NCBI GenBank assembly: GCA_029941135.1
Contig: JAPYRI010000018.1
Location: 1-39,744 of the forward strand
Direction: 5' to 3'
Length of the DNA: 39,744 bases
From: Alphaproteobacteria bacterium
GTDB lineage: Bacteria > Pseudomonadota > Alphaproteobacteria > JAPYRI01
The translations under genes and the position numbers were made by a program. A model generated the notes under the pieces. That model had not been told where the DNA came from and ran no database searches. It saw only the letters and a program-made list of their open reading frames with translations. Positions within the stretch are counted from its first letter, which is position 1. Every line of letters starts with the position of its first letter. Of this stretch, positions 19,465 through 27,473 are shown in pieces.

Positions 19465-20841
19465 CTACTTGCCGATACAAAACTCGGCAAACACTTGGTC
19501 CAAGACATCCTCTACATCGATCTGGCCGGTAATTTGACCGAGACAGCGGGTGGCCAATCGAAGCTCCTCGGCCGCAAGTTCACTCATATTCGGGGTTTGT
19601 GCGACAACATTTGTAAACCGATCCATGGCATCCATGCAGTCTTCGAGGGCCCTGCGGTGCCTAGCTCGGGTGAGGCTCGGCCCGGGCCCTGAGACCAGAC
19701 GGTCCGCCACCCTGGCCTCAAGCGCCACAAGGAAGTCTTCCATACCGGCCCCGGTGTTGACCGACAGAGGCCAAGTTCCGGAGCCTGGGGGTAATCCATC
19801 GGCCAGCTCCACCACCCCGACAGGCTCATCCAGCAGGTCAATCTTGTTGACAACTATCATCGCGATTTCATCCACTTGGTCACGGGTGTGCACGTCCATA
19901 TGGGGCCACTCCTGGGCATCAAACATGACAACTTTAAGGTCGGCAGCGGCGGCTTTCTTTCTCGCCCGAAACATTCCTTCCCGCTCGACCGGGTCTTCGC
20001 TCAGCCCCCGCAAGCCCGCCGTATCCGCCAATGTCACTGGAAATCCGCCGAGATCCATATGAACTTCGATGACGTCCCGGGTGGTCCCTGCCAGGTCCGA
20101 AACGATTGCCGCGTCCCGCCGGGCAAGGGCGTTCAACAAACTCGATTTTCCCGCATTGGGTGGCCCGACAATGGCCACATAAACCCCGTCGCGCAGGCGC
20201 TCACCACGATGATCATCATTCAGATGACTCCCGACATCCTGTTGTAACGCACTAATCTGCTGTCCCACGTTACCCAATATGGCGTGCCTTTCGCCGGGGC
20301 TCAGTTCATCGTCGGGAAACTCAAGATCTGCCTCCAGGTGGGCCAAACCGATGATCAGACGATCCCGCCAACCTTGGTAGAGACCGGCGAGGGCACCATC
20401 CATCTGCCGCAAGGCTTGGCGGCGCTGGGCCTCGGTCTCCGCGTTAATAAGGTCGGCGAGACCCTCGGCGCGGGTCAGATCAAGCTTGCCATTGTCGAAT
20501 GCCCTGCGGGCGAATGCCCCGGCCTCCGCCGGCCGGAACCCCGGCAGGCCAGCCAAGGCCGCGAAGAGAGCCGCGACGACAGCACGCCCCCCGTGGACTT
20601 GAAATTCGGCAACATCTTCGCCGGTGAAACTTTCGGGGCCCGGAAACCACAGCACCAATCCCCGGTCTATCAGACGACCCCCGTCGGGCCATCGGAGGGT
20701 CCGTAAGGCCGCAAATCTCGGGGCGGGGAGAGCGCCAGACAGAGCTATTATCGCCTCCCCGGCCCCAGGGCCGGAGACTCGCACGACGGCGACGCCGCTG
20801 CGCCCGGCGCCACTCGACAAGGCATAAATGGTCGTGTCCAT
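19465..20841 (-). CDS. mnmE: tRNA modification GTPase MnmE (TrmE)
   Basis: MnmE works with MnmG in the wobble-uridine modification. The protein has 458 aa. The N-terminal tetrahydrofolate-binding domain starts MDTTIYALSSGAGRSGVAVV and includes SFTGEDVAEFQVHGG. The G domain sits in the middle: P-loop GPPNAGKS (226-233), then DLAGTTRDVIEVHMDLGGFP, DTAGLRGLSEDPVEREG and the NKID motif. The C-terminus ends in CIGK, the family motif with the Cys needed for modification. ATG 20841 is the natural start. It is the first gene of the mnmE-mnmG-rsmG-parA-parB run. Confidence 0.97.
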   Translation of the reverse strand: MDTTIYALSSGAGRSGVAVVRVSGPGAGEAIIALSGALPAPRFAALRTLRWPDGGRLIDRGLVLWFPGPESFTGEDVAEFQVHGGRAVVAALFAALAGLPGFRPAEAGAFARRAFDNGKLDLTRAEGLADLINAETEAQRRQALRQMDGALAGLYQGWRDRLIIGLAHLEADLEFPDDELSPGERHAILGNVGQQISALQQDVGSHLNDDHRGERLRDGVYVAIVGPPNAGKSSLLNALARRDAAIVSDLAGTTRDVIEVHMDLGGFPVTLADTAGLRGLSEDPVEREGMFRARKKAAAADLKVVMFDAQEWPHMDVHTRDQVDEIAMIVVNKIDLLDEPVGVVELADGLPPGSGTWPLSVNTGAGMEDFLVALEARVADRLVSGPGPSLTRARHRRALEDCMDAMDRFTNVVAQTPNMSELAAEELRLATRCLGQITGQIDVEDVLDQVFAEFCIGK

Positions 20842-20940: not shown

Positions 20941-21291
20941 CTATTTCGGTCTCTGTCCGGGGGTGAGCATCAGACGCGCCACCCGGCCGCCATCACGCAC
21001 GTGAACCTCAAGGATCTCGTCCACATCCGCTTGACTGTCATAGCGGTACCACACCCCCTCCGGATATATCACCAGGGTGGGGCCCAATTCGCACCGATCC
21101 AGGCATCCACTCGCATTGATGCGGACCGGCCGCATTTTCATTTCCTTGGCACGGGCTTTCATGTAGCCCCGTAACTCCAGCGAACCCTTGTCCCGGCAAC
21201 ACCCGCGTGGATGACCGGTCTCGCGCTGATTGGTGCAGCAAAATACATGGCGCTGATAAAATTGCGGGGGATCGTCGGGGGGGTCGTTCAT
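20941..21291 (-). CDS. thioredoxin-like [2Fe-2S] ferredoxin-domain protein
   Basis: This small protein (116 aa) matches the (2Fe-2S) ferredoxin family with a thioredoxin-like fold. Candidate cluster ligands are Cys18 or Cys19 in HVFCCTNQRETGHPRGCC, Cys31 or Cys32, and Cys63 and Cys67 in SGCLDRCELGPTLVIYPEGV. The sequence WYRYDSQADVDEILEVHV is typical of the family. A soluble electron carrier is likely; the partner is unknown. It lies downstream of the DUF6489 gene on the same strand, with an AT-rich island between them, and upstream of mnmE. Confidence 0.88.
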   Translation of the reverse strand: MNDPPDDPPQFYQRHVFCCTNQRETGHPRGCCRDKGSLELRGYMKARAKEMKMRPVRINASGCLDRCELGPTLVIYPEGVWYRYDSQADVDEILEVHVRDGGRVARLMLTPGQRPK

Positions 21292-21298
21292 GGCGCCA

Positions 21299-21362
21299 CT
21301 ATTCTATAATACACATATTTATTGGTAAATATTATATATTACAATTATCATGTGTATATTAC
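21299..21362. repeat. AT-rich island with long inverted repeat
   Basis: This stretch is overwhelmingly A+T in an otherwise GC-rich region. An eight-base perfect inverted repeat, ATACACAT (21309-21316) and ATGTGTAT (21350-21357), encloses AT-rich sequence. On the minus strand it lies between the end of the DUF6489 gene and the start of the ferredoxin-like gene. It could be the promoter region of the latter or a structured transcript end. Confidence 0.5.
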
Positions 21363-21609
21363 TCCGATTTTGGGTCACTTTTTACCCCCGCTGCCGACCA
21401 GAAATTTTTCATGGTCTGCTCCCCGCCGGATACGTCACCACCCCCGAACCAGGGTTTCATCAGGCTCTCCGGATCCATGGTGCCGACGCTCGCACGTATT
21501 CGATCCATCATCTCTTCAGTGGCATTTTTTGCAGCTTGGTCAGATCCGGTAGACCGAGAAACGACCGCGCCTCCATCGTCGTACATTCCACCTCGATTTT
21601 GATTTTCAT
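21359..21609 (-). pseudogene. DUF6489-type small protein, frameshifted at an A6 tract
   Basis: The frame from ATG 21609 encodes MKIKIEVECTTMEARSFLGL and PDLTKLQKMPLKR, then stops. An overlapping frame supplies the rest: NATEEMMDRIRASVG, TMDPESLMKPWFGG and QTMKNFWSAAG. Joined, this is an 83-aa protein that matches my memory of the DUF6489 family in its start, MDPE segment and length. The break lies at six As (minus strand; T6 at 21525-21530 on +). One missing A, or a -1 slip on the codons CAA-AAA, restores the family reading L-Q-K-N-A-T-E-E-M-M. So it may be a recent pseudogene, a sequencing error, or a gene using slippage. GAGGA lies upstream of the ATG. The family function is not known. Confidence 0.75.
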
Positions 21610-21835
21610 GTCGACACCGATCCTCCCCTTGTCGGCCCTCGTGGGCGCCCAAGATTTAACCTCGACCCTAGGGGATCGAATGCGCGCGCGCAACGACAGC
21701 ACAAGCATACGGCTCTCCGGGCCTGAACCTTGCTTGGAGTTTGACCCAATCGCAACCGCAGCTTACCTTGAAACCAACCACGAATAACCAGAATTTGACG
21801 ACTTCGACGCCGCCCCATCGCACCCGAAGGATGCC

Positions 21836-26171: not shown

Positions 26172-27428
26172 TCACGTATTCATGCTGTCGAAGAAATCGT
26201 CATTGCACTTAGTCTGCTTTAATTTGTCCAGCAGGAACTCCATCCCATCGGTTATGCCCATGGGGGACAGGATGCGCCGCAAGACCCACATTTTTGACAA
26301 TGTGGCTTTATCGACCAGCAATTCTTCCTTACGGGTTCCAGACTTAGCGATATCAATGGCCGGGAAACTGCGCTTGTCGGCCAGTTTGCGATCAAGAACG
26401 ATTTCCGAGTTGCCGGTACCTTTAAATTCTTCAAAGATCACCTCATCCATCCGGCTGCCGGTATCAATCAGAGCCGTCGCGATAATCGTCAGCGACCCGC
26501 CTTCTTCGATGTTGCGCGCCGCGCCGAAGAACCGTTTTGGCCGCTGCAGTGCGTTGGCATCAACACCACCGGTTAGCACTTTCCCCGATGAGGGCACGAT
26601 GGTGTTGTAAGCGCGCGCGAGACGTGTGATCGAATCCAACAAAATGACCACGTCCCGTTTGTGCTCAACTAAGCGTTTCGCTTTCTGAATGACCATCTCC
26701 GCCACTTGCACATGCCGGGTCGCGGGCTCGTCAAAAGTGGAACTGATCACCTCACCGTCTACCGAGCGCGACATATCGGTCACTTCTTCCGGCCGCTCGT
26801 CAATCAGCAGTACAATGACAAATACTTCCGGATGATTCTGGGTGATCGCATGGGCGACGTTTTGCAAGATCATGGTCTTGCCGGTACGTGGGGGCGCGAC
26901 AATCAACCCGCGCTGCCCCTTGCCTAGCGGTGAAATCAGATCAACCACCCGGCCGGACAGATCTTTGACCGCCGGATCATTCGGCTCAAGGATAAATCGA
27001 TCTTCCGGATAAAGCGGTGTCAAATTGTCAAAATGAACTTTGTGTTTGACCTTTTCCGGGTCTTCAAAATTGATCGAGCTGACTTTTAGGAGCGCAAAAT
27101 ATCGTTCGCCGTCCTTGGGCGCCCTAATTTCTCCCTCGACGGTATCGCCGGTGCGCAACCCAAATCGCCTGATCTGACTTGGACTGACATAAATGTCATC
27201 CGGGCCGGGCAAATAATTAGATTCGGGCGAGCGCAAAAAACCAAACCCATCTTGCAAGGTTTCTAATACGCCACCACCTGATACTTCATCGCCCTGATCT
27301 GCCAATTGCTTGAGGACAGCGAACATTATGTCCTGCTTGCGCATAGTACTGGCGTTTTCAATATTCAAATCTTCTGCAATGGTAAGAAGATCCGTGGATG
27401 CTTTACTTTTTAGTTCTTGTAAATTCAT
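26172..27428 (-). CDS. rho: transcription termination factor Rho
   Basis: Rho is the hexameric RNA helicase that ends transcription at C-rich rut sites. The protein has 418 aa, the usual size. The N-terminal domain starts [20 protein letters not shown], followed by the RNA-binding OSB fold with [20 protein letters not shown]. The ATPase core has the Walker A segment APPRTGKT (178-185) and [20 protein letters not shown], plus the Q-loop/R-loop region [11 protein letters not shown] and [23 protein letters not shown] 27428 is well placed. hemJ lies upstream on the same strand with a 281-base gap that forms the rho leader and holds a C14 tract in the transcript. Confidence 0.97.
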
Positions 27429-27459: not shown

Positions 27460-27473
27460 GGGGGGGGGGGGGG
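27460..27473. repeat. 14-base G homopolymer (C14 in the rho leader)
   Basis: Fourteen consecutive Gs on the + strand read as C14 in the rho transcript, ending 31 bases before the rho ATG. Rho binds C-rich RNA, so this could serve autoregulation, and the tract could also vary in length by slippage. Its exact length should be treated with caution because such runs are read poorly. Confidence 0.9.

Follow-up and report, generated by a model that had tools for sequence, protein, structure and literature searches.

In programmed −1 ribosomal frameshifting, the ribosome changes frame at a tandem slippery heptamer, X XXY YYZ, that is positioned in the zero frame; at such sites, including those of dnaX and of IS elements, a run of As is found at the frame change. 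Runs of As have also been connected to the rescue of frameshifted genes. For instance, Citrobacter tssM is rescued at a run of 11 As (PMC4256274), and for the poly-A/T tracts of the AT-biased symbiont Blochmannia, the authors say that slippage may correct frameshifts (PMC3017870). One paper gives run lengths at which polymerases slip: T7 polymerase slips on three As, slippage by the host polymerase in the E. coli reporter described in the same paper was undetectable below seven Ts or eight As, and the 0.82% insertions reported there for T6 were apparently made by the E. coli enzyme (PMC6260861). Potyviruses slip at GAAAAAA (PMC5027478). In a large proportion of genomes, A/T runs can be seen to be selected against once they reach a length of nine, a length that differs among bacteria (PMC1088944).

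The locus described here resembles the slippage-rescued genes in that it has a frameshift at or near an A run and a second frame that is still recognizable. However, its run has six As while that of tssM has 11, it lies in a window with 57% G+C and not in an AT-biased genome as in Blochmannia, and neither the run nor the frameshift was seen in its relatives. With the programmed sites of dnaX and IS elements it shares the run of As at the frame change, but it lacks a zero-frame heptamer, a stimulating fold and any conservation that we could see.

A DUF6489 gene in two overlapping frames

The window is the whole stretch of alphaproteobacterial DNA that was analyzed (39,744 nucleotides). On its minus strand, a gene of the DUF6489 family (PF20099), which comprises small proteins of unknown function, is divided between two overlapping frames, and a run of six As lies close to where they meet; the initial annotation had described both the split and the position of the run, and the sequence and its frames agree with it on both counts. 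The first frame starts with ATG at 21609, reads MKIKIEVECTTMEARSFLGLPDLTKLQK and then MPLKR, and closes with a stop codon whose last base is 21508. Shifted back by one base, the overlapping frame runs open from 21652 as far as 21359 and finishes with ...NATEEMMDRIRASVGTMDPESLMKPWFGGGDVSGGEQTMKNFWSAAGVKSDPKSE, TAA. Joined, the product has 83 residues, of which the second frame provides the remainder. The locus and its neighbours comprise the following features:

21359-21609, minus strand: DUF6489 gene, whole split locus, two overlapping frames meeting near the A6 run
21508..21609, minus strand: first piece, 28 family-fitting residues, then five out-of-frame residues; PF20099 27.4 bits, residues 1-27
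21525..21530, minus strand (T6 on the plus strand): A6 run, likely break, with first-frame codons CAA AAA ATG
21359..21527, minus strand: second piece, frame one base back with a TAA end; 31.4 bits alone against the relatives' model
20941..21291, minus strand: (2Fe-2S) ferredoxin-like gene, downstream neighbour; NCBIfam ferredoxin models 70.3 and 62.5 bits, below cut-offs
19465..20841, minus strand: mnmE, downstream neighbour; NF003661, 565 bits
21836..23890, plus strand: DUF255 gene (PF03190, thioredoxin-like), divergent upstream neighbour; 236.8 bits

An AT-rich inverted repeat (21309-21357; 24-nt arms, 75% complementary, 1-nt spacer) lies between the DUF6489 and ferredoxin-like genes. A Pfam run covered 43 of the 44 listed ORFs of the window, the omitted one being 21350-21787, antisense over DUF6489; nine of the 43 had no family at the thresholds used, and the ferredoxin-like one had a match only below cut-off.

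The family name holds. The joined product scores 41.2 bits against PF20099, where the curated cut-off is 23.6 bits; the first piece alone also passes this cut-off, and the second piece alone has no Pfam match. A model derived from 81 distinct relatives gives the joined product 90.7 bits and the first piece 50.9 bits, and it recognizes the second piece by itself. When the second piece was shuffled in 1000 joins, this model gave a mean of 49.9 bits and a maximum of 60.1 bits. Because the real join lies above that maximum, the second piece is homologous to the family and homology runs across the break.

Moving the join along the gene with the relatives' model showed that codons 26-32 all give 87.5-90.7 bits, with codons 27-28 best. 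Thus, the A6 run to which the break had been assigned is the neatest site but not the sole candidate. At columns in which one residue is found in at least 60% of relatives, the second piece retains that residue in 5 of 7 cases and the first piece in 13 of 18. Few columns thus stand behind the earlier description of the downstream frame as free of decay, and they suggest no more than a break of no great age. A literature search with DUF6489 as a word found no paper.

DUF6489 in relatives

The relatives available for comparison are at the level of the class only and are at most 54% identical, over 30 residues only; consequently, a site conserved no further than the genus or order would escape detection. 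Those identified by name are Alphaproteobacteria, which makes the same class probable for the window's organism. Among 385 genomes of the class, 143 have a DUF6489 match, the window's own genome included, and the frame is split in the window's own genome only. In 140 of the 142 others, the match lies in one stop-free frame that extends from residue 1 or 2 to at least residue 52 and thus across the break. The remaining two matches end near the break (residues 1-28 in G243 and 1-30 in G324, in open frames of 108 and 107 residues) and say nothing about the frame across it. One genome, G366, has an extra match starting at residue 22, in a frame of 59 residues, besides a full match. A separate search of 58 genomes with the Pfam model gave the same picture, with matches in 20 of the 57 others, all stop-free and all reaching at least profile position 56. 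When a relative was sought at the DNA level in the 58 genomes, the own genome was the sole match. Among viral contigs, 59 stretches fitted a pattern, and none was confirmed.

In 85 relative loci, representing 81 distinct proteins, we tallied A runs in the codons aligned to residues 24-34. The longest run is 1-4 in 83 loci and six in two, L049 (at residues 24-26) and L070 (at residues 32-34), both at codons other than those that carry the run in the window. Six As at the window's break codons were found in none of the 85. The DUF6489 proteins of these loci have 76-107 residues, a range that includes the 83 residues of the joined product. Thus, the gene resembles its relatives in sequence across the break, in length and in neighbours, but differs in that its frame is split here while it is single in the relatives that are readable across the break.

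We searched for the neighbours, scoring presence only, in 81 distinct relative loci of 2.7-6.3 kb each (at least 35% identity, E up to 1e-6). MnmE-like matches are present in 68 of the 81 loci, DUF255 matches in 40 and ferredoxin matches in 20, and at least one of the three is present in 71. Because of this recurrence, the window gene is probably the orthologue, and its locus the orthologous locus. No second DUF6489 copy was found in the own genome. Since there is one copy and its neighbours recur beside relatives, the reading of the locus as a decaying second copy is rejected.

Recent mutation or consensus error

Because the readable relatives have the gene whole and without the suspected slippery run, the most likely cause of the break is either an ordinary, recent mutation or an error in the assembly, rather than a built-in frame switch. 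Both of these alternatives, already named in the initial annotation, fit the comparison with relatives. We give an even chance to a natural, recent one-base frameshift in the sole DUF6489 gene found, in or within a few codons of the A6 run. The main competitor, at an appreciable but less than even chance, is an error of sequencing, assembly or strain mixing, in which the gene would be intact and the consensus would be wrong by a single base, in the A6 run or close to it. A one-base lesion beside a homopolymer, with a recognizable second frame, in a draft of 178 contigs is what such an error would look like, and the whole frame in the class genomes readable across the break fits it as well. The state of the genome, a 3.02-Mb draft with 95.26% completeness and 2.81% contamination, likewise counts against a real mutation.

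On the other side, A6 runs are not unusual in this genome: the sense strands of 194 ORFs of at least 900 nt contain 63 A6 and 21 A7 runs. To see whether homopolymer indels are widespread in the assembly, we searched 439,744 bases (the window and 400,000 bases of its own genome) ab initio for frameshifts. A first Viterbi model made 289 frameshift calls and was too loose for use, and a second called no frameshifts; its 13 nonsense-type events all fell on the minus strand and are taken to be a model artefact. A third model, run at three costs, recovered 38, 18 and 9 of 60 planted frameshifts. In the real sequence it called 104, 24 and 4 events at these costs, and it flagged none of 60 unmodified ORFs; among its 24 listed events, none is within 15 bases of a run of at least six. 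When 100 frameshifts were planted in long ORFs, a test of ORF pairs recovered 37, and it flagged 1 of 100 unmodified ORFs. Because of this recovery rate, and because the DUF6489 break itself is absent among its 29 real candidates, which are ab initio calls only, this test is weak. All 29 are more than 15 bases away from any run of at least six. Thus, in this low-power test of 440 kb, no other candidate join is found beside such a run, and there is no sign of widespread homopolymer indels in the assembly, which argues against error and supports a real mutation.

A real mutation is also supported by the homology that runs on past the break with both PF20099 and the relatives' model, by the single frame in the readable relatives, by the probable orthology of the gene, for which no second copy was found, by the nearly end-to-end matches of rho, mnmG, mnmE, hemE and hemH to NCBIfam models, and by decay elsewhere in the window, where a PF03372 match has two in-frame TAG codons. 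On balance, we lean slightly towards a real recent mutation over error, and we infer that the change is present in cells rather than in the consensus only.

Two observations concern other parts of the window. The PF03372 (exonuclease III-like) match with the two TAG codons, at 896-1516, looks like a pseudogene; the genome has two further PF03372 matches (C17 and C54), both stop-free, and TAG terminates 45 of the 194 long ORFs. The rho gene (26172-27428, minus strand) has a run of 14 Gs at 27460-27473, 31 bases ahead of its start codon. No homopolymer in the sampled 439,744 bases is longer, and apart from it only a T9 reaches a length of nine; the G run may be a switch that acts on rho through changes in length, or it may be an oddity of the assembly.

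Slippage at the A6 run and the fate of the gene

The initial annotation had also offered functional slippage, in which an A added by the RNA polymerase, or a −1 slip of the ribosome on AAA, would yield a useful share of full-length product. It had named unbroken relatives without an A tract as an observation that would refute this, and such relatives, albeit distant ones, are what we found. We regard functional slippage as very improbable. It could draw on the recognizable second frame, on the precedent of rescue at A runs in Citrobacter and Blochmannia, on the slippage of other polymerases on short runs (T7 polymerase and potyviruses) and on the insertions at T6. Moreover, the lysine tRNA on AAA could, by reasoning, re-pair one base back inside the A6 run. 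However, the run is not shared at the break codons by any relative locus, and potyvirus slippage uses the virus's own polymerase. Six As also fall short of the approximately eight or nine As or Ts, or more, that would be expected for transcriptional slippage from the reporter data and the runs under selection as those papers present them (PMC6260861, PMC1088944). On this length and on the missing conservation, transcriptional slippage is rejected.

Codon phase further argues against slippage by the ribosome. The zero frame at the break reads CTG CAA AAA ATG and has no X XXY YYZ heptamer, because the glutamine tRNA would need to re-pair with GCA; by this reasoning, the site would allow no more than a slip of one tRNA, that for lysine on AAA. 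The 95 nt that follow the run showed no stimulating fold (z 0.11 for folds without pseudoknots, with 106 of 200 shuffles folding equally well or better), and neither the site nor the frame change is conserved in the class-level relatives. Programmed −1 frameshifting is therefore rejected. Moreover, CAAAAAA occurs in frame five times in the 194 long ORFs; efficient slippage on this sequence and on the A6 and A7 runs would be expected to harm many genes. That the lineage keeps DUF6489 as a two-frame gene, with low-level slippage at the A6 run giving a small, limiting amount of full-length product, is more improbable still.

Returning to a natural, recent frameshift, it would act as an ordinary knock-out of DUF6489. 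Translation from the ATG would give approximately 28 family residues and five foreign ones before the stop codon, so that no working protein would be expected; the product would thus be lost. The gene would then have become a pseudogene very recently, or else the population that was sampled would carry a broken allele of it.

If, however, rescue by slippage at the A6 run were true, slippage in bacteria would have to be taken seriously at lengths at which the E. coli reporter detected none. More generally, when a draft genome shows a frame broken beside a short homopolymer, this can look like recoding; at the window locus, both the relatives and the phase of the run within its codons speak against recoding.
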